From IMG/VR virus record IMGVR_UViG_3300030107_006047, positions 1 to 64,000 of that record: a stretch of 64,000 nucleotides of DNA, one strand, 5' to 3'. The notes beneath the pieces are model-generated. The model did no database searches, had not been told where the DNA came from, and worked only from the letters and a program-made list of their open reading frames with translations. This document shows positions 3,001-51,260 of the stretch, one piece after another. This stretch comes from a virus. The position numbers and the translations under genes were made by a program. Numbering within the stretch: position 1 is the stretch's first letter; each line of letters starts with the position of its first letter.

Positions 3001-3215
3001 AAAAGGCCGCGAAGAAGGCGGCAAGCGCTCTCGGAGAGAGTATTGGTATCAGGCCCGCCACAGAAGAGCAGAGAGAAGAGTCACGCGCAAAGCGCGAAGA
3101 GTTTCGGTCTCGCAGAGAAGAGGCCAAGGAGTCCGGTGCCGGTGAAATCGGATCTTTCCTGGCAGGGATTGGCCTTATTCCATCGAGCCCACCGAATCAG
3201 TCGGGCTCGGAGTAG
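9..3215 (+). CDS. Large multidomain phage protein, probably 5'-truncated (acetyltransferase-like and ADP-ribosyltransferase-like regions)
   Basis: The frame is open to the left edge, so the ATG at 9 may be internal and the gene may begin outside the window. About residues 246-275 carry an RGKGLG turn followed by a helix, the acetyl-CoA-binding signature of GNAT acetyltransferases. About residues 398-500 run LFRG, then SQFF with an alternating beta pattern, resembling the R-S-E layout of ADP-ribosyltransferase folds found in phage polyvalent proteins. The glutamate cannot be fixed by eye. The last third is charged and helical with short hydrophobic stretches, like proteins packed in virions. 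A role as an injected effector or internal virion protein is inference. It lies upstream of the terminase genes, separated by a small reverse-strand ORF. Confidence 0.75.
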   Translation: MLEMGLVLSEDGKTLFMNDPDKAMEYLDGMYRDVMSYSDVATQATSLDDGIWALPRSFQYPEQDFLAIDASPGREFSEQELRALSTNPYTEGGQPSTDVDKAFERIRQAIENREALGGELPEEVQDLKKELPTSEEIDDLITTGQLGPTGEPIAPGEPEARLWADWVAGELGTESSRVLEDVEFESGKIAPRMFTGESVEGEGVVLFQGESPRPKGRLLLSPLTDDDYFVTAVSSKGEKARTPMRSVQDVHLDESLRGKGLGVRMYEEAIAYLGKQHPQGFLFVPSSLTGSGATTEEAERVWNSLRKRYMTNGESLYVGPKRNAPVNFEVGKTPAGLELGETIKTLGVEPGAPQVVVEGQNVTPRHEAQRLVANFRKSEQSVKDFDALQEGFRRLLGATEDEIVLFRGIESEGFRMPEWEDSYWDELDALRDEGYGSLSSKDAKKVRMEGDPVKARRYNQLLWVARSSGSQFFSDQIAVALSYAGSEGTVYAIKVPKDKAIDHWAHDNTTPNRGPGGGLHYGSNFVFSPEDIKQINAAGGFAGTGTVQLDVPHDDFLPEGFGSSYFGQVGTGSMVPTEEMESLMPWQKTSAEFQTLDGGTAVEHKAQVRRAVSQGFRVPALILEEYPDLQQAYGGRIALRPDAPLSPQADPVFLKPPTALAFPTGASQAEQLGETIQMVASPRFGRQPAGGPTAFRPQTPVDRLVDTLHSVEGVRGKGILPAGAEGRSAALLSHVQEVAPELLQDRRGMALVDDITQKFSEATQLSIDGKETEALRLRKEAQRSTEALNSRIGWRTAGRVLSGAALGADILHLGYRITDEGLVEGYQSYGADVLQGITGLMKAPRALSNFLTNRWGPEASSIAPDWYSPAPGVPPIGGPLNALAETGELIEDVALGARRREKQRKKRRAEWQKWHDFAVDLGIEERIAEGVGIGTGVAEWSRSVALGEVDPYRSPEYQQAMLDKETARYALLRKGEEAMETVAEDHPDIFTEEGIDYKKAAKKAASALGESIGIRPATEEQREESRAKREEFRSRREEAKESGAGEIGSFLAGIGLIPSSPPNQSGSE

Positions 3216-5531: not shown

Positions 5532-7736
5532 ATGGCTAATGAAGAAACAGAGAACGAAAACAGTCAACTGACACCCTCTATTGTGCAGGAGCATCTGCAA
5601 TCACATGACAAACGGATGCGTGAGGGTCGCGAGCAGTGGGCGCTTGCGAAAGCTTGCTACACAACTCAATACTGGAAGCACATCCAGGGGGCCAAAACAA
5701 CAACGGATAGCTCAAAGCTTACCGATGTAAATGTAGAGGTCAACCGAATCTGGGGTGTGCTGACATCCTATCTTGGGGCCCTTTACCCTCGGGCGAATCG
5801 AACTGTTATTGGGCCAGATCCTGCCGGTCAGGGAGACCCAGCCAAGGCAGAGCTTGCTGCCAATCGCTGGATTTCATCAAGAAAGATTCACCATCGAATC
5901 ATGTCGGGCCTGCGCCAGTCTCTTCTGTACCCAGGGTGTGGAGCCAAGATTGGTTTTCACCCTGGTCATGGCAACCCTCTTGACCGTGTCTGGCTAAGGG
6001 TCATCCCTTGGTGGGAGATGGTTCTTGACCATGACGTTGGAGATGCGGAAGATGAAAGGTTTCGTGGTCATGTTTACTTTCGACCAAAGGCTGAGGTTGA
6101 AGCAGAATACGGCCTTGAAAACCTAGCTGGCGTCTCTCGTGGCGACTTCTTGGATCCTTCTGCTCAAACAGATCACACTCGAGCGAGCGCTAAAAAAAGA
6201 AAGAACATCGCACCAAGCGATGAGGGTGCTTTCGTCCGTGTTCTTGAAATCTGTAATCTAAAGGACACCATCAAGGATGAGGACGATCCGAGCATTGTTT
6301 ATAAAGGGCGGCTTGAGATCTACATTCTCGGGCAGGGCAGGGAGTATGACGAACCAGTTTGGGTTGGCCCAATGCCCTTTGCGTCCACAGATGGCCAGCC
6401 ACTGCCACATATTATCCCGCTTATCTTCAACCACGAACCAGAGTTTCCTTTGAGAGGAATCTCCCACGCTGCCCGCATTCTTCCGCAGGTTGTGGAGTTG
6501 AATGCCTACCGTTCCTTTATGGCCATGGCGACCAGGAAGGACACCAGACAGTACATCACAAGAAAGGGTACGTTTAGCTCGGACGAGCTTACCAACCTGA
6601 CTGAAGGTCATGATGGTCTTGTTTTAGAGGTTGGTGATTATGACGGGCCTCTTGATGACGCGATTCGCCCTATTATTAACGCACCGCTGAGCGGAAACAT
6701 ACAGAACTACCTTGCAACAGTTGAGACAGATCTTGAGCGAGGAATCGGCGCATCTCCACAAGCCCGTGGAATCGTAACGAAGGCCACCGCCTTTGAGGTT
6801 CAAACGGTCCAGCAATACACTGAGTCTGACTTCGGAATGCATGCGGCACTCAAGGATGAGTGGCTCGCCGGTATTATCCGATTGGTTCTTCGTGCAGTTA
6901 TTGCGGCCATGCATGACCGTGGTGACTCTGCGGGTGCATTTGATGACCAGAATGTTGCGCTCGCCGAGGTTGGTGCGATTGAAGAGGAACGGGAGGCTAC
7001 GCCAGAAGAGGAAGAGGAGCAGCTCGAGGCTTCTGGTTTAGCGGAAGACGCTGGTGAGCCCGCGCCGTTTGTTGATGAAGAAGCATACGACGAGATTGGT
7101 GAGCAAGAAATCAATGAAAACGTGACGGTCATTGAAGAGACTCCTCTCTTGCTCCGTGAAAGAAACGAAATCGTTCGCGTAGAGATGCAAGACCTCGATG
7201 CTGATTTTGAGATTTCATTTGTCGAGGGTGGCCGCACCCCGCTGTCAGACACAACAATGCAGCAGAACCTTGTTGGCCTCATGGAGCCCTACACACAACT
7301 TTGGATGGCTGTGCAGAAAGGCGGACCAATGGGTACGCTTGCGCTTAACTATATGAAAGTATTGGCAGAACGGTTCGACCTTCCTCGGGATCTGCATCCT
7401 GAAGAGCTTCAAACGAAGGCCGAGCAAGCGGCTGGGGTTGAGCCAGAAGCTTCAGGGGAGGAGCAGGCCCTTGCGGAGCAGATGGGAGAGGCTCCTCCGA
7501 GTGAGGCTCCTCCGGGTGGTCCTGAAGGCCCAGCCGTTCCCTCAGAGCAAAGCATGGGTCAGATTCTCCAACAGATTCAACAGATGCCGCCAGAAGAGCA
7601 GATTATGGCCCTAAAGGCCCTATTCCAAGACGATCCAGCCGTTCTTCAGGCGATTGAGAAGCTTGAAACACTTCCCCCAGAACAACAACAAGAGGCAATT
7701 CAAATGATGCTTGGAGGCGCAAATGCCCCTGTATGA
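5532..7736 (+). CDS. Portal protein
   Basis: 734 residues. It follows terL directly, the usual portal position. The N-terminal region has the helix-rich pattern of portals with large podovirus-like size (VNRIWGVLTSYLGALYP; IPWWEMVLDHD). A long central beta/helix region and an extended acidic, Glu/Pro/Gln-rich C-terminus follow (roughly residues 480-734), which could form the barrel or interact with internal proteins. No strong Shine-Dalgarno precedes the ATG. Expression is probably coupled to terL, whose stop is three bases upstream. Its 3' end overlaps the next gene by 14 bases. Confidence 0.85.
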   Translation: MANEETENENSQLTPSIVQEHLQSHDKRMREGREQWALAKACYTTQYWKHIQGAKTTTDSSKLTDVNVEVNRIWGVLTSYLGALYPRANRTVIGPDPAGQGDPAKAELAANRWISSRKIHHRIMSGLRQSLLYPGCGAKIGFHPGHGNPLDRVWLRVIPWWEMVLDHDVGDAEDERFRGHVYFRPKAEVEAEYGLENLAGVSRGDFLDPSAQTDHTRASAKKRKNIAPSDEGAFVRVLEICNLKDTIKDEDDPSIVYKGRLEIYILGQGREYDEPVWVGPMPFASTDGQPLPHIIPLIFNHEPEFPLRGISHAARILPQVVELNAYRSFMAMATRKDTRQYITRKGTFSSDELTNLTEGHDGLVLEVGDYDGPLDDAIRPIINAPLSGNIQNYLATVETDLERGIGASPQARGIVTKATAFEVQTVQQYTESDFGMHAALKDEWLAGIIRLVLRAVIAAMHDRGDSAGAFDDQNVALAEVGAIEEEREATPEEEEEQLEASGLAEDAGEPAPFVDEEAYDEIGEQEINENVTVIEETPLLLRERNEIVRVEMQDLDADFEISFVEGGRTPLSDTTMQQNLVGLMEPYTQLWMAVQKGGPMGTLALNYMKVLAERFDLPRDLHPEELQTKAEQAAGVEPEASGEEQALAEQMGEAPPSEAPPGGPEGPAVPSEQSMGQILQQIQQMPPEEQIMALKALFQDDPAVLQAIEKLETLPPEQQQEAIQMMLGGANAPV

Positions 7737-26106: not shown

Positions 26107-29100
26107 GTGTCAAACGGGAACGACGACGACATTCTTCTGGAGGGAATGACTGGGTTTGCTGAAGAGCCTGTTCTTGGCGGCGGAGTTTACCGTGGAGAGC
26201 TTGATCTTACGGGTGAATTAGACACCTCTCCTGCAGAAATGTTCGAGGATGTTGATGTTGTCGGGTCTATTAGGGACTTTGAAGAAACTTACAGCAAAGC
26301 TGCAACACCCGTTACCTATATCGAACAAGAGCAAATAAACGATCAGCTTAGAGAAGCTATTGAAATGCAGCTAAGGTCTACCCGGCCTGGGCACGAAGAT
26401 GACTGGTACAAAGAGCGGGTCGAGAAAAGAATTCATGACCTAAGCTTCGTCCATGCCAACTATGCTCCTGATCCTCCTGAGCTTCCAAGTGTTAGCTTTC
26501 TAAAGAACCTATACCAACAATACCCAGAGCAACTCAGGTCAACGTATCGACCAGATAGCTCGGTTGGTCGTGTTGTTTCCGCTATCAGCACCGACAAAAC
26601 AGATGAACAAATCCAAGAACTGATTGACAAAACAACAGTCAGTGAATGGCCGAGCGAGTTTACCTGGGGTGGCGGTTTCGTCAACGCTATGCAGAGGGGC
26701 CTTAGCCGAAGGGTTATCGAGGTCGAGGCTGGCGCTGATAAGCCTGGAAGCGAGATGCGGTGGGAGCACGGTCGGAAAGTATCCAGAGAATACGAAGCCA
26801 TAATGGATGACCAGGGCTGGGGGGCCGGTGTAGCCAGGATGTGGGCAAACGGTCCCAGCATGGATGAAAACGACGCCTATCGTGCGGGCCTGTTTCTCGA
26901 TGAAGACGAGGCAACCGCACGAGAACTGGTTGTTTCGACGGGTCTTGGTATGACTTTTGGCGCTATGGTTAGGAGCAAGCTTGGGTACTTGCTTCCTAGG
27001 GCTGGCGTTTGGGGTAGACGCACTTTTGGCTTGAGGGGTGCCGTAAAAGGGGCGACAGCAGGATCTTCGGGCGGCCCTATCGGAATGACTATTGGCGCTG
27101 TTATTGGCGGTTTTGTTGGATACGGCGCTGGAAAGGTCTGGGGAAAAGTGGACGCTGAAGAGTTCTTCAAGCCCGTTCCTGCTTTCCCTCAAGACGAAGA
27201 TGATGACGGGTGGTTCTTTGCCCTTCCAAAAGGCCTGGTAGATCTGTCTACAAGAACTCTTGTATTGACCGGCTTGGCGGACTCCGCTGTTGTTCCGATT
27301 ATGGCCTCCAGCAATGAAGAGGCAGATCGCATGAGAGACATTATCGCGATGTCTCGGCCAAGCGAAGCATGGGAGTCTCTTGTTCATGAATATCGAACAG
27401 CCCGCGACTCTGGAAGGACAAGCGAGGAGCTAAGAGAAGAACTTAGGCCCCTCATGGGCGGCATGGTTAGAAACGTTGCGTGGGCCGATCTTCCCGACGC
27501 CGCACGCCATGCTGATAACCTCGACTTAGAAACCGCGATTGAATATGCGACAGCCAACAAAGACGTTGGAGATATCAACGCTCCTAAGTTTACCTTTCAA
27601 TACTTTGTTGGTTTAGCTAATGAAGGAAATACCGGCAAAAAGGGTCTTCAAAGGGTCCTCCACAGCCTTCCTATTGGTCAGATTCTAAACCATGTCCCGC
27701 AGATTATTGTTGGTGACGAAAGCCGTCCTGGTTCGATTCCTTCCGTTGATACCTTCATTGACGGCGTCATGGTTGCGGCAAGAGACACTGAAGAAGCTTA
27801 CGCGCTGACCGGAACGGACACAACTCGGGATCTTGCTACCGGCTTCGCCGAGTTGATGCTTGAAAGAAGAGAAGTGGGCGGCACGACTCGCTATGTGGAG
27901 AATACTCCTGGTAAGCTCTTTCGAGTTCTGTCTTCAGTCCCCGAGCTGTACATGGAGATGCGGCTTCCGTTCGACATCCCGCTAACGCCCGCGTCTCGTG
28001 ACGCAAGGTACAACCTTGGTATTCGAGATCCTGATGTCGGATATTGGGCCAATTTCTTTTCTAATGTTGAGACGGGGGAGATGGGGCTTGCTCGCCATGT
28101 GACCGACGAGATGATTTCTCGTGGTGTTGACAGGCAGTCTTGGCAATACAGGGGAATCGCTACCGGCGGTGTAATGGCCGACTGGCTGGTGTACTGGGAG
28201 CGCCCAATTATTTCTGGAATCGGGATGCCCACAAGGGCTGGATTGCGAGGGTATGGCGCTTGGAAGCAATACAAAGACAATCCTCTACGATTGCAAGCAG
28301 TTACCGCCGCCCTTTCTCCGAGGCTTTACGCCTTTAGGAACAAAGTAGATGTTCAAAACACTCAAGCCTGGGCTAATGTTTCCCGGTTTCTTGGTGAGGA
28401 CACGGGGCTCGAGGGCTTGCAGACCCTCAAGGGAGGGAAGGCTTCAGACGGCTCTGACGTTGTTCTTGGAGTTAGGGAATCCGGCATTGTAGACAGAATG
28501 ATTGAGGCGATGGAGCAGGGAAAAAGCTTCGAAGACGCAGAGGCTTCTCTCCCCACCTACAGAGACCATGATTGGTATACAGTCCAAAGCCACTTGTTAT
28601 CTGAAGGAGTGAAGAACGGAGTCATAAAGGGCGACGATGTCTGGGCTGTGGTTCCAAAGCCGATGAGAAGCCAAGTGATTCAGGTCATGGCTGCGGCTGG
28701 TATTGAGCCGTCTTCTGCCATTAGGGCTCTGAACCAGTACATCCTTAAGGCGAGAAAGATCAACCTTCATGCCATGGAGAAGCTCCTGACCGAAGGCACT
28801 CCAGAGATGATTGCTTTTCGGGGTAGCGATCAGTACAAGAACTTAAGGAATGTCTTGCTTGAAGCCGTTGGTAGCGCTGGCGGAGCAACAGACCATGTAA
28901 ATATCTCTATGCCAAAGCTCGAGCTTCAGGCTTGGATTGCGGCCCTTGATCCTCAAAGACCCAACATTAAGTCGATGGAGGACTATTTCGATGCTTTGCG
29001 TATTGAATTAGAAGGAGCCGGAGGCCCTCCCCCGACTAAAGGTCCCAAAGATCCACCAGTGGGCGGGCCCGAAGATCCACCAGTGGGCGGGCCAGGAAAA

Positions 29101-32100
29101 GACACATTCGACGATGTTGGCCCAACAGATTCTCCTCGAGATCTTTTGCCTGCTCCGAAATCTTTTGAAGATCAGTGGGAGTTTATTCAGGTTCTCGAAT
29201 CTCCCAATGGCGGGTATTGGAAAAGGAAGGGAGAGGGTCCTGCGGTCACCAGCCCTCTTTCTCACCCAGAGCTTGCTGGAGGAAAGGGCGCAGACGCGAT
29301 TACTGTGTTCAGGCATTCTCCAGTTCTTGGGGAAACACCTGCGGCTGCCGGTGACTGGGTGGGCGCAAGGATTAAGCCCACGGGAGTATGGGGAGATCAC
29401 TTTAATCCGATAATGCACGCATCCAGGGGTGCGGACCACCCGGCGCTAACCCTTTACAGCGCTATTGATGGAAATACTTACAAGTTCACCATTGCCGCTA
29501 CCAGCAGGGCGTCGCAGTCAAAGATAGGTGACGTTCCTGAGATGTATAGGACTTTGGTGGCAGAGTCTTTGGCTGAGTTCAAGCAGCATTTGGATTCTAA
29601 TCCAGATGCTGAGTACGTCTTTATTCCACAAAAATCCAAGATGAAGATTGCTTATAAGCCATCGGGACAAATAGCTTTTCGCGACCAGGGTTACCCTGAA
29701 AAGACCTTCTCGTTCTACAAGAAGTGGGCAAGAGATCTTGGTCTTGAAGAAACGACAGCCTGGTATTACCCGGAAAAAGGGAGCTACCGCGAAACTAAAG
29801 CGTTTCGTATTCCGTCCAAAAAGCTTGAGAAAATGCAGGAGCAGGCTGCGCTTGCAGCAAAAGATCCAAGCGTAATTCCTCCGTCTGCTGTTCTTGAGCA
29901 TCCAAAGCATTGGTCGAAAAAGAAAGTAGACTTCATTGAGTCTTGGAGGAAGTGGGCAAAAGAGAGCGGAATGGACCCGCTGATTTCGAAAGTTTCCGAA
30001 ACATTCATGCAGATCCTTCCGAATCGGGCGTTTGAATATCACAACCTTTATTTTCACCCGACCAGTAGACACCTTTATGGCTCACAAGCATCTGCCAGAG
30101 GAAGCGGTATAGACAGCGGCATCCCTTACGCAGTGAAGCTGTACTTTACGTCGAAAGCAATCAAATACGACCCAGAAACTTCTCCTTTGGCAAAGATGAC
30201 GAAAGAGGAGATCGCTGAGGATGCACGAAAGTCCTTCCAGGCTTGGAAAGACGACAAGCTAGCAAAACGGAGGAAAGAAAAAGGTCTTGATCCGCCAGGA
30301 TCAGATGACTATCTTGCTGCCAATTCAGATCTTAGGGCGATTGAGATTAATGAAATCATAGAAGTGCTCGGCCCTCATGTTGCCGAAATAAGCCGAAGAA
30401 TGTCGGAAAGGAGAGAATCTGGCGCGAGAGTGCCGGTTGAAGATGATCCTCATTGGCAGATTGACACTGACCACGCAAAATACTGGGGCGTATCAAATGC
30501 TGGAGAATGGGTTGAGAACCAAGTTCTCCAAACCGGCGTCGCCGCCAAAACGACTGATGTTGGCTATAATCCTACACTTATAAGAAGGGCTGTAAGGCGA
30601 GCAAGCGACGCAATTGCGCAGAGCGAATACAGCCTAATCAAGGTAGCGCATACGTTTGTACACGAGATGACGCATGTCCTTCACTACTCAGTTCTTTCAG
30701 AGAAGGAACTGAAGGCCCTCAGGAGAGCATACGTTCGTGAACGAGATGCGGGGTTTCCAAATTGGAGAAGAGCTAGAGATTTTAAGAAGGATTTGAAAAC
30801 AGAAAGCGCTTTCGGTGAATGGCTTGCAGACACTGTTTCAGATTATTGGATTACCGGAAACGCAAGCAGGCACGGTTTGTTTACCAAGGAAGAGGCGGGG
30901 CTTCTTCAATCAGCCATCAGAAGAATGGCTCACTGGTTCAAACAACTATTTGGTTGGAGGAGCCAGACCATTCGGGGAACGGCACCTCTCGATACGTTCC
31001 CAGAGGAGATCATCGATCTTCTTGAAAGGCTTACAAAACAGGCGCTTGAAGGCGAAGAAGCTAAAGCGGGATGGGTTGATGAAACGGTAGAAATTAGACC
31101 AAAATCAGAGCTTCGTAGCTGGTACTCAGAAGACCTTGGGCCTGTTGCGTCTACGCGCCGTACAGGCCCTCCGCGCCGTGGAAACGAGATTCCTCGTAAG
31201 GATTGGGACGAAAACTGGCAAGACAAGCCCGCGATAGAATCTGCGCGGTGGTTGAGAGATCAAGTAGATAACGATCTTCAAAAAGCAGTATTAGACAAAG
31301 TCATAGAAAGCCTGGACGAAACAGGCACAGATCCAAGAAGCACGTCCGTAAAGACGTACTTGTCAGACCTCCCTGGATTATCTGGTCGGTATCATCCCGA
31401 CAGGGGTTGGGTTTTGCTCGACCCGGCTCGGTCATCTTGGCAAGAAGGTGGCATGGTTCAGGTGGCAATCCATGAATTAGTGCATGCGGCTACTGTGGGT
31501 AAGATTGAAATCTACCCGGACTCGATCCAGGTGAAGAGGCTGGACCGTCTCTTTGATGAGGCTAGGTCACAGGTTTTTACTCCTGCTCACAAGACACGTT
31601 CTTATGGGTGGAATGACCGGCTGGAGTTTATTGCGGAGGGTCTTTCAAATCCTAAGTTTCAGGATGAGCTTCGCTCTATCAAAATCAGCGATGAGCTTGC
31701 TTCAGAGCTTGGGATTGCAGATCCAAATCTCTGGGAGGGCTTGGTCGCTATTATTAGACAACTCTTGGGTCTAGGCGAAAACGACCAGTCAGCACTCTCA
31801 GGTCTTCTGAAGGTCACAGACGACATCGCCCGTATGGACATTGAGCCGAAGCGCTCTATGAGCTGGATGGATAGGTCTAAATACGAGCCTCCGCCACCCG
31901 CAAGGATGGAAGAGATTCTTGACACGATCTTAGACGAAAAGTCAGCACAACAGGCGGCCACTGCTAACGCCCCTCTTTGGGTAAGATCTATTCAAGAAAT
32001 GCCAGAAGAGAGGGCGCTTGACGCAGCCGAAAGCATTGCTGCGAACTACGCTCCTGTTGGCTCAAAAGAGTACGAAGGCATTGTTTCATACATTGTGACA

Positions 32101-35100
32101 GGGGGACGAGAGGGAAGGCTGAACAGAAAAATCTTGGCTGACTTTGAACCAGGAACCCCAGCATCGACTCCATCAACAGGGCCGACTCCAAGGTGGCGAG
32201 TGTTTTACGACACAAAGGTTGAGGGTAAAGACGGAACTACCAAGCTTGTTTCTTCTGCAGAGGTTTGGAATAGCGCTGACGCAGACGCGCTGTACCACAT
32301 AATGAAGAGCGGCAACATCTTTATGATCTTCAACAACGGCGGAAAGCTTCTGCGCCGATTCCTTGGCTCAAGAGACTACCGTCACTTGGTTAGAGAGCTT
32401 GATACCAAGGGGGGCCGAGACAGGCTGTCTCCAGATGGAGAGCGTGCAGCCAAGAAAGCATTCAAGGCATACATTGAAACAGGCAAGGCAAGCGGCCCAC
32501 TACTGCCGCTGTTTGATCAGTTGTACCTGAATCTCCAATCGTACTGGCTACGCCTGTCTAAAGACAGGTCCATTATCGCATCCCCTGAAATTCGAGGATG
32601 GTTTGATGAATGGCTTGCCCCAGACTTAAACCTAAGACCCCTTGCTGCTGAGATTACGGAAAGAGTTTTGACCAGATTCAAGCAGGTCAGAATTGCAGAG
32701 CCCGAAGATCTTCTGAAAAGATTGGAAGAGGGCATGGTCGGCCTTATGGGCCGAAAAGAAGAGTTTTGGCGCGTTCCTTTAGATACGCCAACTGTCAGAA
32801 ACGCTCTTGGCATTACTGACTACACCAAAGAAATGGATGTCGTTGACGCCTTTTCTAGGGCTGTTGGGTATGTGGCTGGTGAGCACGCCAGGATTATGTC
32901 TGGCGCTGAGAAGATGTTTGACCTGACCACCCGAAGCCACGTTCCTGCAAGCCGGGTAAAGGCTATCCACAGGGATGCGAATCGTCGCGTTTACCAAGTA
33001 CTTAATGGAAAGGTCGAGCACGGAACAGGAACAGGAAAGCTTGAAGGAAAGGTGGTCGCAGTTCTTTCTCCGGCACAAGCTGCATCCTTTAGGGTCTTTC
33101 TAAGATCTCTTAGTGCTGAGGCTCTTGGTAATATCCTTCCAATCCACCTTCTTGATGAATCTACTGACCTTACCCAAATATCGCTTGCTGACATGAACAC
33201 CATCATGGAAGTCGTCATTGATATTGAGGCGGGTGTGGCGGCTTCAAGAACGCACTACTCTGAGCGCATTTCGCCAACCCTCGCTGTTGCGATGTGGAAC
33301 GGCCTTAAGCAAATGTCGATCAACTCTGAGAAATACTCCGACCTAATGAAGTCAGTATCAGGTGGAATCCGGTCTCGATTCTCAGAGGCTTCCGATCTTG
33401 AAGATCTTGGTCCGTTCCAGCGACAAGTAGTAGAGATGACAACCAGAGAGTTGGGCGGCATTCCAAACGAAATGCTCAGGTGGCTTATTGAGTTCAGGAA
33501 AGGGAACAAAGACGCTACTCTTCATGAAATGTATCTGGCAATGAAGAACCAGCTAGAAGCTCCAGTCAAAGTAGAGCTTGTTGAAAAGATTATGGGAAGG
33601 CCAGCCACGCCAACAGACAAGGGCTCTAAAGGCTGGCTTGTAGAACTGGAAAGGTTCCACGGCTCACTGGAGGCCGACCCAGAAGGGCCCCCTCTTGCGG
33701 CTAGCAGGCGAAGGGATGCTCTTTTAGGCAGGGTAGACGATGAGGTTCAGTATGAAGATCCTACTGGCGGCGACATAGCAGGGTCATTCTTGGACCATGT
33801 ATTGGAGAACCTTTCAGATCTTCAAAGCATGATGGAGCAAGAAAAGCTGTCTCACCCGGTATACGGGCGGCTTGCAGAGGAGGATCATCATTCCCTGCAG
33901 ATCCTTCAAACCTACAAAGACAAGCTTAAGAAGTTTAGAGAGGGTCAGGAGAAAGGCGCTCCGAGAGAATCCTTGGATAAGATCTTGTCCGAAGAAGACT
34001 TTTCTGCAGTCGAGGACGCCCTTTATTACGTTCTCGACAGAATCAGAAGGCAGAAAGACAGGATCAGCCAGAGGGCTGTAAAGATTGGTCGCGCTCTTTC
34101 TGGTGACACTGACTTTGCCGATTCTATCTTCATGAAGAGTTCTGATGTTCAGGGCGAGTACTACGTCATGTTTTATGAAGGCAGATGGCTTGAGATGTTC
34201 GAAGCCTTTGGCACAAGAACAGGCATGGCCACTGGCTTCGAAAAGACCAGAGGTAAGGCCCCAGAAATAGACCCCGGCACCGCGCTTGTTCATATGATTG
34301 CAACGCTTAGGGCTGATGAGATTCTCGAGGGCCTTGCCGGAGTGATGGCCAAGTATGGTATCGCGAAAGATGTTCGAGAGCTTACTTCTAACTACTCTGC
34401 TGCAAGAGCCATTGAAGGGCAGTACAGCGGAATAAACAGGGATCTGTTTCACGGTCGGATTCAGTATTACATCGACGGAATACTGTCTTTCCAAATGAGC
34501 GCCAAGAGATACCCCTATGCTCCAATGTACACTGCAAAGGCGGGGGATACCCTTGAGAGTATTGCTAAATCTCATGGTGTGACAGCTAAGCAGCTCGCCA
34601 TGTGGAACGGCCTTGCTGTTACGGATCCCTTGGTGGCCGGGCAAGCAATAAGAACAGCCGACCATAAGATGCTTTTAGAGCAGCCTCGCGCTCCTTTTAC
34701 CGAAAAGCTTGCCCCTGTTCTTCCCACAAGAGAAACAAGAAGAGCGAAAGAACGTGGAGCGCCGGAAGACTTTTACGGCAATGTCCACGATCTTGAGGCT
34801 TATACACAAGCGGTAGACATTATCCATAACTGGGGCTTTAAAACAGCTAAGGAAGGGTTTGAGCTAAGAACGTTGCCGGATGGCAGTAGGGTCTTTGCCC
34901 CGAATTCGGTTTGGAAGCATCTTGATAATGCGCTCGATAGGGCCACGGGCGCTGGCACTGCGCGTGGGGTTGTTGCTCACAGGGTTGATCCTGCTCCGCT
35001 TGGTGTGACCGACTACAAATGGTCACCTGATGCCGAACGAAAGATGGCTCTTGGTAGGGCTGTTGATTCGCTTCAAAATATGTTCCCCTCCACCTTTGCC

Positions 35101-36582
35101 AGAATCAAGATGGGAGTGACGACAGGAATCGTTCTTCCGAACCCCGCTTATTTCACTGGTGTTTTCTTGGGAGCAGGGTTTCAGGCAATGCAAGGCGTTG
35201 GTCCTGTTGGGTTCTTTAAGATGATGAGAAACCCAAAACAGACTGGTGCGGTGATTGCAAGGCTCTGGAAAGAGGGATCTTTTGCGCCAGATGCTCCCCC
35301 AATTGTTTCAAAGAACGGTCAGATTTACACCGTTGAAATGCTTGCGCAGCTTGCAGAAGCTCACGGGTTGAAATCCAGCTTCATTCATGCTGAGACGATG
35401 AAGGCGATTGCGTCGGATATTCGTGAGTTCCATCCTGGCTTTTGGAACAAGATGAGAGTTGGTCGGTGGGCAAAGAACTGGCAGAAGACACTTATCGAAA
35501 GCGCCACCGCACTGGATAACTATTGGCGTGTTTCAGTCTTTATTCATGAAATAAGAATGGGTAAGTCCCCTGCTGCTGCTGCCGAAAAAGCCCGGCTTGT
35601 TGGTTACGACTACGCGGCTCTCACCAAGTGGGAGAAGAAGTTCGCCAGAAATACGATCATGTTCTACTCGTACATGCGCAAGAACATGGATCTGTTCTGG
35701 GACACGCTTCTAACAAACCCGGAACGGCTGATCGGTCAAATGCGGCTCTTGAGAGGGATCCATACGGTCTGGTTGGATGACGACCCTCAGATTGTATTGA
35801 AGGACTATCTTCACGGAAGGCTGCCTACTTATTTCAAAGAGACCACAATAAATACGCATAAGTACAGCCAATGGATGTTCATCTCACCTCCCCTCCCCAT
35901 GATGGACGCGCTCAACATTTATATCGACATATACGATCTGATTGCGTTTAGAGACGAAGAGGCGATGCGAGGGCTTGCCACAAGATCCGCTCCTTGGGTG
36001 CAAGCACCATTTGTTATGGCAACAGGAAAAGACATTTTCTGGGACAAAGAGCTAAACGAATACAACAAGATTCCGTCATGGTTGATGGAGATGGATCTTG
36101 CTTTGACGGGCGGCGGCCTCATGTATGGAGTATTCGGCGCACAAAGAAGGCCCCATAGCGATCTTAGCAGGGCAGACATTTCGGGAGAATCTGAACGCGG
36201 CTGGTATCACGCAAGGAACGGTAGGGCCTGGTGGATCTGGCGAAACCTTCTGCAGTTTCCTGGCGCTGGCCGATCTATGGACACCATTTCATATATGGAC
36301 CGAGCGAACCTTGGGGCTGTCGAGGCTTCCGTCCGTACCGCCCGTTGGGCCAGGAGGACTGGGGCGGAAAGCGGTTGGTGGTCTGGGGTGCCAGAAATGG
36401 GCGAAGGAGACACCATGGGGCCAAGAACCGGCCTTGCGTGGAAAGACGAGTTGGCTGGTCTGTTTGGGTTCAAGCCTATTCATGTTCCTCAAAGATCACA
36501 CCAAACGGCTGTTGATAGTATTAGAATGCACAAAAGGAAAAAGCAGGTTTTGGCCCGAGAACGTCTATCAGAAGAAGACTAA
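26107..36582 (+). CDS. Giant 3491-residue polyvalent-type virion protein with two metallopeptidase motifs and LysM
   Basis: GTG start, GGAGAG upstream. Visible regions: acidic N-terminus; Gly-zipper stretch about 310-345 (GMTIGAVIGGFVGYGAG); first zinc-peptidase motif HEMTH at 1519-1523, with a downstream EWLADTVSDY that may give the third ligand; second motif HELVH at 1789-1793, with EFIAEGLSNP around 1840-1849; a LysM peptidoglycan-binding domain about 2808-2850 (AGDTLESIAKSHGV); and a C-terminal part (about 3000-3300) with PNPAYFTGVFLG and a segment ending FYSYMRKN, like the LPD-type regions of phage polyvalent proteins. Such proteins are thought to be carried in the virion and to enter with DNA. 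The LysM suggests contact with the cell wall during entry (inference). A Pro/Gly-rich linker with a duplicated PPVGGP sits near residue 980. Confidence 0.85.
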   Translation: MSNGNDDDILLEGMTGFAEEPVLGGGVYRGELDLTGELDTSPAEMFEDVDVVGSIRDFEETYSKAATPVTYIEQEQINDQLREAIEMQLRSTRPGHEDDWYKERVEKRIHDLSFVHANYAPDPPELPSVSFLKNLYQQYPEQLRSTYRPDSSVGRVVSAISTDKTDEQIQELIDKTTVSEWPSEFTWGGGFVNAMQRGLSRRVIEVEAGADKPGSEMRWEHGRKVSREYEAIMDDQGWGAGVARMWANGPSMDENDAYRAGLFLDEDEATARELVVSTGLGMTFGAMVRSKLGYLLPRAGVWGRRTFGLRGAVKGATAGSSGGPIGMTIGAVIGGFVGYGAGKVWGKVDAEEFFKPVPAFPQDEDDDGWFFALPKGLVDLSTRTLVLTGLADSAVVPIMASSNEEADRMRDIIAMSRPSEAWESLVHEYRTARDSGRTSEELREELRPLMGGMVRNVAWADLPDAARHADNLDLETAIEYATANKDVGDINAPKFTFQYFVGLANEGNTGKKGLQRVLHSLPIGQILNHVPQIIVGDESRPGSIPSVDTFIDGVMVAARDTEEAYALTGTDTTRDLATGFAELMLERREVGGTTRYVENTPGKLFRVLSSVPELYMEMRLPFDIPLTPASRDARYNLGIRDPDVGYWANFFSNVETGEMGLARHVTDEMISRGVDRQSWQYRGIATGGVMADWLVYWERPIISGIGMPTRAGLRGYGAWKQYKDNPLRLQAVTAALSPRLYAFRNKVDVQNTQAWANVSRFLGEDTGLEGLQTLKGGKASDGSDVVLGVRESGIVDRMIEAMEQGKSFEDAEASLPTYRDHDWYTVQSHLLSEGVKNGVIKGDDVWAVVPKPMRSQVIQVMAAAGIEPSSAIRALNQYILKARKINLHAMEKLLTEGTPEMIAFRGSDQYKNLRNVLLEAVGSAGGATDHVNISMPKLELQAWIAALDPQRPNIKSMEDYFDALRIELEGAGGPPPTKGPKDPPVGGPEDPPVGGPGKDTFDDVGPTDSPRDLLPAPKSFEDQWEFIQVLESPNGGYWKRKGEGPAVTSPLSHPELAGGKGADAITVFRHSPVLGETPAAAGDWVGARIKPTGVWGDHFNPIMHASRGADHPALTLYSAIDGNTYKFTIAATSRASQSKIGDVPEMYRTLVAESLAEFKQHLDSNPDAEYVFIPQKSKMKIAYKPSGQIAFRDQGYPEKTFSFYKKWARDLGLEETTAWYYPEKGSYRETKAFRIPSKKLEKMQEQAALAAKDPSVIPPSAVLEHPKHWSKKKVDFIESWRKWAKESGMDPLISKVSETFMQILPNRAFEYHNLYFHPTSRHLYGSQASARGSGIDSGIPYAVKLYFTSKAIKYDPETSPLAKMTKEEIAEDARKSFQAWKDDKLAKRRKEKGLDPPGSDDYLAANSDLRAIEINEIIEVLGPHVAEISRRMSERRESGARVPVEDDPHWQIDTDHAKYWGVSNAGEWVENQVLQTGVAAKTTDVGYNPTLIRRAVRRASDAIAQSEYSLIKVAHTFVHEMTHVLHYSVLSEKELKALRRAYVRERDAGFPNWRRARDFKKDLKTESAFGEWLADTVSDYWITGNASRHGLFTKEEAGLLQSAIRRMAHWFKQLFGWRSQTIRGTAPLDTFPEEIIDLLERLTKQALEGEEAKAGWVDETVEIRPKSELRSWYSEDLGPVASTRRTGPPRRGNEIPRKDWDENWQDKPAIESARWLRDQVDNDLQKAVLDKVIESLDETGTDPRSTSVKTYLSDLPGLSGRYHPDRGWVLLDPARSSWQEGGMVQVAIHELVHAATVGKIEIYPDSIQVKRLDRLFDEARSQVFTPAHKTRSYGWNDRLEFIAEGLSNPKFQDELRSIKISDELASELGIADPNLWEGLVAIIRQLLGLGENDQSALSGLLKVTDDIARMDIEPKRSMSWMDRSKYEPPPPARMEEILDTILDEKSAQQAATANAPLWVRSIQEMPEERALDAAESIAANYAPVGSKEYEGIVSYIVTGGREGRLNRKILADFEPGTPASTPSTGPTPRWRVFYDTKVEGKDGTTKLVSSAEVWNSADADALYHIMKSGNIFMIFNNGGKLLRRFLGSRDYRHLVRELDTKGGRDRLSPDGERAAKKAFKAYIETGKASGPLLPLFDQLYLNLQSYWLRLSKDRSIIASPEIRGWFDEWLAPDLNLRPLAAEITERVLTRFKQVRIAEPEDLLKRLEEGMVGLMGRKEEFWRVPLDTPTVRNALGITDYTKEMDVVDAFSRAVGYVAGEHARIMSGAEKMFDLTTRSHVPASRVKAIHRDANRRVYQVLNGKVEHGTGTGKLEGKVVAVLSPAQAASFRVFLRSLSAEALGNILPIHLLDESTDLTQISLADMNTIMEVVIDIEAGVAASRTHYSERISPTLAVAMWNGLKQMSINSEKYSDLMKSVSGGIRSRFSEASDLEDLGPFQRQVVEMTTRELGGIPNEMLRWLIEFRKGNKDATLHEMYLAMKNQLEAPVKVELVEKIMGRPATPTDKGSKGWLVELERFHGSLEADPEGPPLAASRRRDALLGRVDDEVQYEDPTGGDIAGSFLDHVLENLSDLQSMMEQEKLSHPVYGRLAEEDHHSLQILQTYKDKLKKFREGQEKGAPRESLDKILSEEDFSAVEDALYYVLDRIRRQKDRISQRAVKIGRALSGDTDFADSIFMKSSDVQGEYYVMFYEGRWLEMFEAFGTRTGMATGFEKTRGKAPEIDPGTALVHMIATLRADEILEGLAGVMAKYGIAKDVRELTSNYSAARAIEGQYSGINRDLFHGRIQYYIDGILSFQMSAKRYPYAPMYTAKAGDTLESIAKSHGVTAKQLAMWNGLAVTDPLVAGQAIRTADHKMLLEQPRAPFTEKLAPVLPTRETRRAKERGAPEDFYGNVHDLEAYTQAVDIIHNWGFKTAKEGFELRTLPDGSRVFAPNSVWKHLDNALDRATGAGTARGVVAHRVDPAPLGVTDYKWSPDAERKMALGRAVDSLQNMFPSTFARIKMGVTTGIVLPNPAYFTGVFLGAGFQAMQGVGPVGFFKMMRNPKQTGAVIARLWKEGSFAPDAPPIVSKNGQIYTVEMLAQLAEAHGLKSSFIHAETMKAIASDIREFHPGFWNKMRVGRWAKNWQKTLIESATALDNYWRVSVFIHEIRMGKSPAAAAEKARLVGYDYAALTKWEKKFARNTIMFYSYMRKNMDLFWDTLLTNPERLIGQMRLLRGIHTVWLDDDPQIVLKDYLHGRLPTYFKETTINTHKYSQWMFISPPLPMMDALNIYIDIYDLIAFRDEEAMRGLATRSAPWVQAPFVMATGKDIFWDKELNEYNKIPSWLMEMDLALTGGGLMYGVFGAQRRPHSDLSRADISGESERGWYHARNGRAWWIWRNLLQFPGAGRSMDTISYMDRANLGAVEASVRTARWARRTGAESGWWSGVPEMGEGDTMGPRTGLAWKDELAGLFGFKPIHVPQRSHQTAVDSIRMHKRKKQVLARERLSEED

Positions 36583-37589: not shown

Positions 37590-38450
37590 ATGGGTGGGTT
37601 TTTCAATCGGTTTGATGCTACAAGTTCCAGTATTCGAGCAACAGACCTTGAGGTCGATGGAACTACTGTTGTTGTAGATGAGACCAACAATCGGGTTGGT
37701 ATTGGGACGGCTACTCCGGCAACACAACTGCATGTTTCTAAAGACACTGACGGAGAGTTTGTAGCTCTAAAGCTCACAAACGAGTCGGATGCTAACGATA
37801 CGACCGGAAAGGTCAGCCTTCAGTTTGATCTTGAAGATACAGGCGGAAATGCTGTTGATTCTGCAAAGCTCTTGGTTTCCAAAGAAGCCGCGTTCACCGC
37901 AACAGCTTCTACTCAAGACGCCAAGTTTGAGCTGCAGCTTTCAGAGAACGGAACCCTTGGAACCAAGTTTACTGTCGAGTCGAGCGGAGATGTTGTCATT
38001 CCTGGCGACATCGAAATGACGGACAGCAGTGCGATTGTTGACTCCAACAACTCCAAGCTTTTGAAGTTCTGTTCTGTTGGCAGCGCCGTCAACTACGTTG
38101 AGGTTGAAAACGCAGCAGACGGTACTGCTCCTGCAATCAGCGTGCTGGGAGACTCAACCAACATCACAATGTCCTTGAAACCCAAGGGAACTGGCGGTGT
38201 GAGGATCTTTGGGTCTACTGCCGCAGCAGCGTCTCTTCTTCTCAACGAGGATTCGGACAACGGTACGAACTTTATGAAGTTCCAGGCCGCTGCGAACATC
38301 GTGTCTAACCACACCTATACTTGGCCTGCCGCAACGCCTGCTGGGGATAGCATCCTAAAAACCAATAGTGGTGGCGACCTTTCATGGGTTGACGAGGCTC
38401 CGCCTCCAAACGACCTCAACTTAAATCTTCACATGCAAGTTTTTTCATAG
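37590..38450 (+). CDS. Tail fibre-like protein
   Basis: 286 residues. Early in the protein is VGIGTATPATQLHVS, the GIGT-P-LHV segment widely seen in phage fibres and adhesins built of repeating beta helices. Later DGTAPAISVLGDS and MSLKPKGTGGVRIFG continue the one-strand-per-turn pattern. The C-terminus (GDSILKTNSGGDLSW) is typical of fibre knobs. A receptor-binding or fibre-shaft role is likely. Confidence 0.75.
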   Translation: MGGFFNRFDATSSSIRATDLEVDGTTVVVDETNNRVGIGTATPATQLHVSKDTDGEFVALKLTNESDANDTTGKVSLQFDLEDTGGNAVDSAKLLVSKEAAFTATASTQDAKFELQLSENGTLGTKFTVESSGDVVIPGDIEMTDSSAIVDSNNSKLLKFCSVGSAVNYVEVENAADGTAPAISVLGDSTNITMSLKPKGTGGVRIFGSTAAAASLLLNEDSDNGTNFMKFQAAANIVSNHTYTWPAATPAGDSILKTNSGGDLSWVDEAPPPNDLNLNLHMQVFS

Positions 38451-44541: not shown

Positions 44542-45192
44542 CTACAACGTGTCAGGCTTTGCCTTTTCTTTCCCGACATTTTCAAATGTATCGGTCGAGA
44601 CTTTCTCTTTAGCCATCACACCAATCAAGTCTTTCAGCAGCGACTTCAGCTCGGAATCGTTACTCGAGTCACCTTTTGCAGCGAGCGCATCAAGAACCTC
44701 AGTTGGGAGGGCCTGTGCCTTCACGTTGACGTTCATGGCTGGCGCTCCGTTGTGATACTGAAGATCATCCTTGTTCAAGGCATCAACCCACTTGCATGCA
44801 AGCATCACCGACTCCATATTGTTGGAGTCTTTTCGGATGTCCACTTCATATTCAGCAAGCTTCCATTGACCGTTTCCTTGGGAGTGAGAAATGTTCTTCT
44901 CCATATGCTCAAGGCAGAGCCCAATCTGGTTGGCAAACAGTGCTGCCGACACATTGCCGAGGGTATGCGCCAGTTCCCATTTAGCGGAGCGGAGCCGAGA
45001 GCGGTGGTGTTTCCAGGCTTTCCGGGTCTTGGCGTCGATTTGGTTTAAGTCCAACACCTGACGGACAATAGCTACAAGCTCAGATGACTGAAGCACCATG
45101 CTCTTTTTGTTGTCTTCATTATTGTGCTTTGGACCAACGGTTCCAAGCTTCCGCTTTTGGTTTTGATCTTTGATTTCTTCAAGAAGGCTCAC
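44542..45192 (-). CDS. Unknown protein of the recombination operon
   Basis: 216 residues, overlapping the upstream RecT gene by four bases. Mixed helical, no catalytic motif; basic and polar. Contains RSRLRSAKWELAHTLGNVSA in the middle and a Lys/Asp-rich C-terminus. Its coupling to recT suggests an accessory to recombination or replication. Confidence 0.75.
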   Translation of the reverse strand: MSLLEEIKDQNQKRKLGTVGPKHNNEDNKKSMVLQSSELVAIVRQVLDLNQIDAKTRKAWKHHRSRLRSAKWELAHTLGNVSAALFANQIGLCLEHMEKNISHSQGNGQWKLAEYEVDIRKDSNNMESVMLACKWVDALNKDDLQYHNGAPAMNVNVKAQALPTEVLDALAAKGDSSNDSELKSLLKDLIGVMAKEKVSTDTFENVGKEKAKPDTL

Positions 45193-46109
45193 GGTTCATC
45201 TCCTAAATATTCTAATGCAAAGTCGTCTTCGACTGGTGGCGCGACATCTGGTTTAGCCAGCACCTCTGCTGCCTTGCTTTTCTTCTTCCGTCGCTTGGTT
45301 TTCTTATCTACTTCAACAGAATCTACATCGATTGGCTCCATTGTAGCAATGAGTTCTGTCTGACCTTCCTCTTTTAGGTCATCAAGGACAGGCTTTGGAA
45401 TGAACAGTTCTTGGTCTTTGCCGGTGATGTCGGCGCTCGTGTCGTGCTCAAGAACCGTCTTGGCCTCTGCAGTCAGTGGCAAGTACTTGCAGATGCGTCG
45501 AATAACTGTCTTGCGCCACATCTCTTCGGTGTGGCTTTTCCATGGGCCGCTTCCTCCGCTACGAGAGTTGTCTCGAATCTTTTCGATTTGATCCTTTCGC
45601 ATCACCTCGACCTGTCGTTGCCCGTCTTTGAAAAAGCACACGGCATAGGCAAGCTTTGGCTCACCGACCTCTCCGTCATAGCTGGGCTTGTGCCTCAGCA
45701 CTTCGCCCTCTTCAAGATCAAAGTAATGCTCAAAGGCTTCGCCTTCGTGTACAACCCTGGCTACAAAGTTAGCGATCTCGCCTGACCGGCGAACCAACTC
45801 CATCAGCCCGGTATAGTCAATCCACAACTCGGCATCGTGAGTCTTCTTTCGCGAGTTCCAGATGGGAACAAGGTGCGCCCTGTGTAGCACTCCACCAGCA
45901 ACAAGGTTGAGTTGGCAGGCTTTGGCAAGGGCCATGTAAATCGATTGCGGTGAGCAAGACAGAAGCCTCTCGTTCTTGGCGGCCTCAAACATTGCCAAAG
46001 AAACGATGCGATCTACGTCCGTGCCTTCGGGTGCAATCTTTCTTAGGACTCCCTTTTTTTGCTCAAGGTAGTTTCCTAAGTTCTTTCCAGGTGAAATCTC
46101 AGTACTCAT
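45189..46109 (-). CDS. recT: RecT family single-strand annealing protein
   Basis: 306 residues. Typical RecT features: MFEAAKNERLLSCSPQSIY near 54-72, KACQLNLVAGGVLHRAHLVP, LWIDYTGLMELVRRSGEI and MWRKTVIRRICKYLPL. It pairs complementary strands during recombination and replication repair. The gene overlaps the exonuclease gene by four bases upstream, the usual Exo-RecT partnership. The C-terminus (about 255-306) is acidic/lysine-rich and variable. Confidence 0.95.
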   Translation of the reverse strand: MSTEISPGKNLGNYLEQKKGVLRKIAPEGTDVDRIVSLAMFEAAKNERLLSCSPQSIYMALAKACQLNLVAGGVLHRAHLVPIWNSRKKTHDAELWIDYTGLMELVRRSGEIANFVARVVHEGEAFEHYFDLEEGEVLRHKPSYDGEVGEPKLAYAVCFFKDGQRQVEVMRKDQIEKIRDNSRSGGSGPWKSHTEEMWRKTVIRRICKYLPLTAEAKTVLEHDTSADITGKDQELFIPKPVLDDLKEEGQTELIATMEPIDVDSVEVDKKTKRRKKKSKAAEVLAKPDVAPPVEDDFALEYLGDEP

Positions 46110-47065
46110 TTGTTTGTTCCTATAATTCGAAGCACCCTTGAACCGGGTTTTTCTTTAACGTATTTGTCGTACATCTCGGGGTTCTCTTCCCGAAACTTAT
46201 TCTTATCAAAGACCTTGCTTGGCTTGTTTGGCTTCCACGTTGCAACGCCTTCGATGCCTATTGCTTCACCGATGCTGAATCGGATCTCGTTCTCTATCTC
46301 TTTCTTTCTCGCTGCCAGTTCGTTGTATTGTTTCTTCACCTCGAGAAGCTCTTCGCGGAGCTGCTTGTCTTTCAACGAGGCTTCTTTCAGAAGCTCGACA
46401 TCGGGCTTGTTGTAAAGCACGCTGAGCAACCTCCTTGCGTCGTCGCTTCCATCGGGCGGCGGTGGCTTATGGCCGACAACATGCTCGTCCCACCACTCAG
46501 TGGCTATGTCGAGGATTCTCTTGCCGAGCGCCTTGTCTCTATCAATACGATAAACCCTAAAGTCATCAAGACCAAAGTACGTGGCAATATCCCAATACGG
46601 TGCGTCCGTGATCTCCATGTAGACACGCATTTGAATTTCGACATCAAGCGGTACATCTGTTCCCCCGTCGTCTCCCCAGCCTTTTCTAAATCGCCGGGTC
46701 TTGGCATCCATCCCAAAGGTTGTGCCGTTTAGTTTGACGAGCCTGTCTGGCGTCCCAAAGATCTTATCGTTCCCTGGGTGCCAGAGCAGACCACTGTCAA
46801 CAAGCTCAGCACCTTTGCCAAGCCTGTTTTCGTACATCTCAACGACGTACTTCTCCATGATTATGCCGCGCTCTGCGGCCTGCATGTCTCGGTTTTCAGA
46901 CGGTGCTTCAATCCCAACTTTGTCTGCCCATAACGAAAAAGCGCTCTTCTCAAAGCATCCCAACTTTTGAGACTTCTCCGCAGATGAACAGATGATGCAA
47001 GCAACGTCGGTTCCACCGAGACCCCGCTTCCTCTCCCTTAGCCATTCTTCTCTCGTATTATTCAT
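46106..47065 (-). CDS. YqaJ/lambda-type exonuclease
   Basis: 319 residues. ATG at 47065 (MNNTREEWLRERKRG) is preferred over a longer frame from 47122; AGGA lies upstream. Motifs: GLGGTDVACII, then an ERGIIMEKYV helix with catalytic Glu, FGTPDRLV (Asp), DAK and VEIQMRVYM, as in the lambda exonuclease/YqaJ fold. It resects 5' strands to give 3' tails for RecT. The C-terminal segment (GVATWKP, PGSRVLRI) matches this family. Transcription may start almost at the ATG (see the dyad region). Confidence 0.9.
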   Translation of the reverse strand: MNNTREEWLRERKRGLGGTDVACIICSSAEKSQKLGCFEKSAFSLWADKVGIEAPSENRDMQAAERGIIMEKYVVEMYENRLGKGAELVDSGLLWHPGNDKIFGTPDRLVKLNGTTFGMDAKTRRFRKGWGDDGGTDVPLDVEIQMRVYMEITDAPYWDIATYFGLDDFRVYRIDRDKALGKRILDIATEWWDEHVVGHKPPPPDGSDDARRLLSVLYNKPDVELLKEASLKDKQLREELLEVKKQYNELAARKKEIENEIRFSIGEAIGIEGVATWKPNKPSKVFDKNKFREENPEMYDKYVKEKPGSRVLRIIGTNK

Positions 47066-47072
47066 TGATTTG

Positions 47073-47101
47073 ATCCTATTCACTGATAGTATGTATGTCA
47101 A
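47073..47101 (-). promoter_or_regulatory. Candidate promoter for exonuclease-RecT genes
   Basis: On the - strand TTGACA (47096-47101) and TAGGAT (47073-47078) are 17 bases apart. This would place the RNA start within a base or two of the ATG at 47065, giving a nearly leaderless message. The match of the -10 is only partial. Confidence 0.35.
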
Positions 47102-47143
47102 TAGTTGACAGTCGATGAGCACCAGTTAATCGACAAACTATTG
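47099..47143. promoter_or_regulatory. Dyad operator-like region between divergent genes
   Basis: Left arm CAATAGTT plus GTCGAT and right arm ATCGAC plus AACTATTG form an interrupted inverted repeat. It overlaps the candidate promoter and separates the exonuclease gene from the divergent HTH gene at 47180. A likely binding site for that regulator (inference). Confidence 0.5.
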
Positions 47144-51184: not shown

Positions 51185-51260
51185 TGGCTGGGGCAGCGGG
51201 ACTCGAACCTGCAACTTCCTGATTAACAGTCAGGCGTTCTGCCAATTGAACTACACCCCA
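51185..51260 (-). tRNA. tRNA-Asn (anticodon GTT) with encoded CCA
   Basis: The - strand folds as a cloverleaf: 7-bp acceptor (TGGGGTG with TGCCCCA), anticodon stem CCTGA/TCAGG with loop CTGTTAA, T-arm GCAGG-TTCGAGT-CCCGC, discriminator G and an encoded CCA at 51185-51187. Between the methyltransferase gene (51267) and a small gene. A phage-encoded tRNA for AAC codons. Confidence 0.93.

Follow-up and report, generated by a model that had tools for sequence, protein, structure and literature searches.

The window examined here comprises bases 1-64000 of a 72,060-base virus record and contains a giant gene at 26107-36582 on the plus strand, which is also the strand of all of the features within the gene described below. 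The gene has a GTG start and forms a single open frame with no internal stops that encodes a protein of 3491 residues, a probable ejected virion (polyvalent) protein. A preliminary description of this DNA had reported the length of the protein and two HExxH motifs within it, HEMTH at residue 1519 and HELVH at residue 1789, and all of these positions proved exact when the open frame and motifs were checked. Based on the composition of the protein itself, 0.11 HExxH motifs would be expected by chance (p ~0.005 for at least two), although the conservation of the motifs among aligned homologs is stronger evidence than this statistic.

Upstream of the giant gene are genes for the terminase, the major head protein, an SU10-type adaptor and structural proteins. 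The giant gene is followed by genes whose tail-type matches are weak and by one for an endolysin with a peptidoglycan-binding domain, and the gene order around the giant gene is kept in relatives. The giant gene is located between virion genes and probable tail and lysis genes, which is the late or virion neighbourhood characteristic of polyvalent proteins. No tail sheath, tube or tape-measure families were recognised among the genes of the phage, which is probably short-tailed. A candidate portal gene at 5532-7736 has no cultured relative. Other features of the window include an open reading frame for 1068 residues at 9-3215, ahead of the terminase gene, whose product has no PHROG match, adjacent genes for a RecT-like annealing protein and a RecE-like exonuclease on the minus strand at 45189-47122, and a single tRNA gene, for tRNA-Asn (GTT), on the minus strand at 51185-51260.

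Backbone and cargo slot

The giant protein has a conserved N-terminal backbone (26293-29025, residues 63-973) defined by a profile common to all complete near relatives, and a conserved, mostly helical C-terminal core (32272-36510, residues 2056-3468). Between these is a variable cargo slot (29044-32271, about residues 980-2055) that is missing in one clade of 10 relatives and extends to ~3100 residues in the relative L020. A search of IMG/VR with the C-terminal core returned 38 related loci, several of which were re-cut loci of contigs that had already been found. The N and C thirds are common to thirty-odd uncultivated relatives, while the middle is variable and holds no cargo, the first or the second of two zincin-like domains (MPT1 and MPT2), both domains, or other cargo. 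The first 2931 residues had no match among cultured phages at an E-value of 1e-5, nothing was found for the N third or the C-terminal 660 residues in 50,697 cultured-phage records at an E-value of 1, and a scan of the species genome collection with the C-terminal core found no relative.

When the family was divided with profiles built in this analysis, 10 proteins of 2313-2533 residues consisted of the N and C parts only (one of them, L008, is open at the contig end), six relatives had MPT1 only, one had MPT2 only, and eight proteins, including the giant protein of this record, had both. The remaining members carry different cargo and reach sizes of up to 5381 residues. The cargo of the largest (L020:8783-16000) includes an HATPase_c_3 domain (E 5e-7), indicating that the slot also holds cargo other than proteases. 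In a tree of the C-terminal cores, the no-cargo form constitutes one side of a well-supported branch, and the distribution of MPT1 requires at least three changes and that of MPT2 four. No zincin was found elsewhere in the contigs of the 10 no-cargo records, which are mostly fragments, in a search that did detect its positive controls.

MPT2 of the giant protein is 65% identical to that of the relative L045, whereas the C-terminal cores of the two proteins are only 28% identical. The high-identity match is confined to residues 1665-1925, and the next-best MPT2 among family members is 29% identical to that of the giant protein. The nearest backbone relative (L002, 55% identity in the C-terminal core) lacks MPT2. 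These comparisons indicate that MPT2 also swaps between backbones. The product of a probable tail gene at 37590-38450 is 80-93% identical to its counterparts in L019, L021 and L023 but shares just 35% identity with them in the C-terminal core of the giant protein, a contrast that suggests mosaic exchange of adjacent modules.

The LysM domain (34528-34653, residues 2808-2849) noted in the preliminary description is genuine. It exceeds the curated Pfam cut-off (E 2e-10), its model fits solved LysM domains to within 1.1-1.5 Å, and it is the sole LysM domain in the 72-kb record. The domain lies in a loop of the C-terminal core and is absent from the aligned relatives and from 26 related C cores that were scanned, and its base composition does not stand out. 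Its obvious role would be to bind wall glycans. The glycine zipper that had also been proposed fared less well, as the stretch in question (27031-27147, residues 309-347) is weak and under the curated Pfam cut-off (E 0.0085), and a search of the giant protein for strongly hydrophobic segments found none. The C terminus, which the preliminary description called LPD-like, is so by predicted fold. There was no Pfam LPD match in 27 relatives, but among predicted viral proteins the C-core model is similar to those named 'large polyvalent protein associated domain', including one designated LPD38. Apart from LysM, the C-core model had only helical-bundle look-alikes in the PDB. Weak sequence matches of the core to PDB entries such as amyloid precursor protein were taken as chance, and a PETase-like Pfam hint at residues 2898-2973 (E 0.13) was sub-threshold and set aside. 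Five relatives carry an HE-x-G-H motif at the start of the C-terminal core (L020 at residue 4014, L024 at 2379, L137 at 2128, L095 at 2546 and L012 at 50), where the giant protein has NNGGK; the motif may be what is left of a further metal site.

Two zincin-like domains and their relatives

MPT1 spans 30268-31089 (residues 1388-1661) and includes HEMTH (30661-30675, residues 1519-1523) and the sequence EWLAD (30817-30831, residues 1571-1575), in which E1571 is the candidate third zinc ligand. Over eight relatives, HExxH and the E, W, A and D of EWxAD are invariant. E1571 is followed four residues later by an Asp, and a Glu with an Asp at this spacing is the usual gluzincin arrangement. MPT2 spans 31195-31923 (residues 1697-1939) and includes HELVH (31471-31485, residues 1789-1793) and the candidate third ligand E1840 (31624-31626, within EFIAEGLSN). 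Among 16 MPT2 proteins from unrelated phages, the cultured members of which were gathered by plain tblastn, the sole invariant columns are the H, E and H of the motif, one T and the later E. The H, E, H and E are likewise invariant over 39 sequences, although in that alignment MPT1-only rows were placed on MPT2 columns, and retention of HExxH was partly selected since one of the two DNA patterns used for gathering contains it. Both E1571 and E1840 fall in modelled helices. An HExxH conserved among homologs, followed by a third-ligand Glu on a predicted helix, is the pattern expected of zincins.

AlphaFold modelling of residues 940-2110, for which the alignment included backbone anchors, gave a model of low overall confidence (mean pLDDT 61.7) in which the stretches around both motifs are confident (pLDDT about 82-95) and low-confidence linker stretches flank both zincin domains. 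The best rows for the cargo model among solved chains were mainly lethal factor, N4 gp50, PPEP-2 and PPEP-3, and minigluzincins, with selecase also represented. These rows had Z scores of 4-7, so the fold lends support without settling the matter. Structural Z scores of 5.6-7.3, with rmsd values often >4 Å, are in a range that the tool warns may reflect a common arrangement. Plain Foldseek of the model against the PDB returned nothing below an E-value of 0.2. In BFVD, the matches included a phiKMV-group core protein and ART-PolyVal-like phage proteins. Taken with the invariance of HExxH and of E1571 and E1840, the resemblance of the model to zinc peptidases supports the earlier view that each motif is in a peptidase-like setting.

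MPT1 has no sequence relative outside the backbone family and none in cultured phages, and its only match in the PDB was a weak one to a WLM metalloprotease (E 0.03). The giant protein matches none of the Pfam MPTase or LPD models. For MPT2, a profile search of solved proteins identified the tetrameric ejection protein gp48 of PhiM1 (residues 297-514, E 1.5e-27), a solved virion protein, gp10, of another phage (E 1.9e-10), and the N4 vRNAP (residues about 2144-2327, E 3e-10 to 7e-10), all of which retain HExxH and the later Glu in the matched region. The matched region of the N4 vRNAP corresponds to C1, which has a conserved HExxH, in a preprint on the N4 structure (PMC12633501). A profile built from the family of the giant protein alone finds phiKMV gp37 (E 1.5e-21 for a search space of PDB size), and the phiKMV gp37 segment in turn finds several N4-like vRNAPs by plain tblastn (E about 5e-8), independently of the giant protein. 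These matches place one zincin family in the ejection proteins of several phage groups. The MPTase of N4 vRNAP and of polyvalent proteins was described by Iyer et al. 2017 (PMC5512222), whose main text does not mention phiKMV or internal core proteins.

MPT2 is homologous to a domain of proteins shown to be in the virion, as expected of a large podophage ejection protein. Like the giant protein, the N4 vRNAP gp50 (Schitoviridae) has about 3500 residues, and the N4 protein is ejected (PMC12633501). In N4 gp50, too, the MPT2-homologous HExxH domain (HELVHAST ... EFMAWGLAN) is followed by a large C-terminal part that is mostly helical. N4 gp50 differs in having a single-subunit RNA polymerase domain, of which there is no sequence sign in the giant protein: the vRNAP profile matches by the zincin part only, and no polymerase match was found in Pfam or the PDB. 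Neither an MPT1-type second zincin nor LysM was seen in N4 gp50, and the two backbones have no detectable sequence similarity. In phiKMV gp37 and PhiM1 gp48 (Autographiviridae), the MPT2 homolog with its HExxH and third Glu is part of the largest internal virion protein, encoded just ahead of the tail-fibre genes, but these proteins have 1230-1640 residues, one zincin and another backbone, and lack MPT1 and LysM. The polyvalent proteins of Iyer et al. 2017 (PMC5512222) resemble the giant protein in being giant and multi-domain, in possessing at least one MPTase, in their late-gene context and, by predicted fold, in the LPD-like C core. The giant protein, which combines two zincin domains and LysM as disparate domains in one polypeptide, differs from them in lacking a Pfam MPTase or LPD match, in its LysM insertion and in having a backbone not found in cultured phages. 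Similar fold rows link both zincin regions to family M34 (lethal factor, PPEP) and minigluzincins, and a mixed zincin profile reaches lethal factor (E about 0.0015). The Z scores are modest and identity is low, however, and the giant protein is a phage virion protein without a secretion or toxin context. The giant protein is a new branch of the phage polyvalent or ejection proteins, a kind described in 2017.

Probable role of the giant protein

The homology of MPT2 to the ejection proteins of phiKMV, PhiM1 and N4, together with the location of the gene between virion and probable tail and lysis genes, argues for the earlier proposal of an injected multi-enzyme protein. The giant protein would be the counterpart of the large proteins that short-tailed phages eject, such as phiKMV gp37, PhiM1 gp48 and the N4 gp50 vRNAP. 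Its conserved N and C thirds would serve as a delivery backbone, packaged alongside the DNA and then threaded into the cell. The slot between these thirds would hold two metallopeptidase domains, where other relatives have one, none or other cargo, and in each domain zinc would be held by His-His-Glu with the Glu of HExxH as the general base. After ejection, MPT1 and MPT2 most likely cut host or ejectosome proteins as infection starts, and the LysM in the C core, which is specific to this lineage, probably allows the giant protein to bind peptidoglycan in passage. We consider this account of a giant internal virion protein, with conserved delivery ends and a cargo of two zincins that act early, to be probable.

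The zincins might instead cut the giant protein itself, either ahead of packaging, inside the head or once it has been ejected, and so free its modules. Self-processing was proposed for polyvalent proteins from the processing of P1 DdrB and the ubiquity of the MPTase (Iyer et al. 2017, PMC5512222), and the low-confidence linkers beside both domains in the model would be consistent with it. The 10 relatives with the same backbone that have neither domain, nor any zincin in the rest of their often partial contigs, argue that the backbone itself does not need zincins; since those contigs are incomplete, this is evidence rather than proof. In addition, the N4 vRNAP with its homologous domain is packaged unprocessed (PMC5512222) and was purified at full length, about 383 kDa (PMC12633501). 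Together these observations favour, with moderate confidence, an accessory effector that works once it has been ejected. Self-processing, which the preliminary description had entertained, is unlikely as the main role, though a cleavage that only frees the cargo is possible. A zincin fold that is structural or catalytically silent, with the metal serving stability rather than proteolysis in packaging or ejectosome architecture, would fit the ordered ejectosome in the PhiM1 head to which the homologous region belongs (PMC11440229) and the requirement of the MPTase-containing region for encapsidation of the N4 vRNAP (PMC5512222). Across very divergent sequences, however, the invariant positions are those of the complete HExxH...E set, including the general-base Glu, while the rest of the domain varies. 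Such a pattern is seen more often at active sites and makes a silent fold improbable.

In phiKMV gp37 and its relatives (L026:2782-3594; 146 cultured-phage records), the region labelled as endolysin or exotransglycosylase is zincin-like. If that label applied, MPT1 and MPT2 would degrade peptidoglycan, with LysM as the wall-binding module of the same polypeptide. Many phiKMV-group records bear the names 'internal virion protein with endolysin domain' and 'peptidoglycan lytic exotransglycosylase', and residues 268-528 of the PhiM1 tetrameric ejection protein were assigned as endolysin/exotransglycosidase-like in the paper on its structure (PMC11440229). Against this, T7 gp16, the positive control, has a true SLT domain (residues 15-127, E 1.7e-31) and no MPT2; in Limnohabitans phage YIMV22061 and Xanthomonas phage f20-Xaj an N-terminal SLT and MPT2 are separate domains; and the MPT2-bearing ejection proteins of phiKMV, PPWS1, phiNV3 and ErraS have no SLT or lysozyme match. 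MPT2 itself has no similarity to SLT or lysozyme and aligns with the N4 zincin domain, and no SLT is present in this record. Degradation of peptidoglycan by these domains is accordingly very improbable, and the label on MPT2-type regions, which seems to have been transferred from T7, is likely an annotation error.

The preliminary interpretation was mostly right in kind and was anticipated by the polyvalent-protein concept; the exchangeable slot, the homology to solved ejection proteins and the likely annotation error make it more precise. A broader reading, offered tentatively, is that the same active zincin serves as an accessory effector in the ejection machines of unrelated short-tailed phages (phiKMV- and PhiM1-type Autographiviridae, Schitoviridae, crAss-like phages and this uncultivated family), that it moves from one backbone to another and, directly after entry, cleaves a protein of the host or the ejectosome, and that the 'endolysin/exotransglycosylase' label is wrong. 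That annotation is widespread and calls for correction. The role of the HExxH domain of ejected phage proteins has been a question ever since the domain was recognised in the N4 vRNAP. The relatives that share the backbone but lack a zincin offer a natural check on the proposal that the protease processes its own carrier, and the sequence link to the solved ejection proteins of the phiKMV group and PhiM1 makes the HExxH domain testable in cultured phages.
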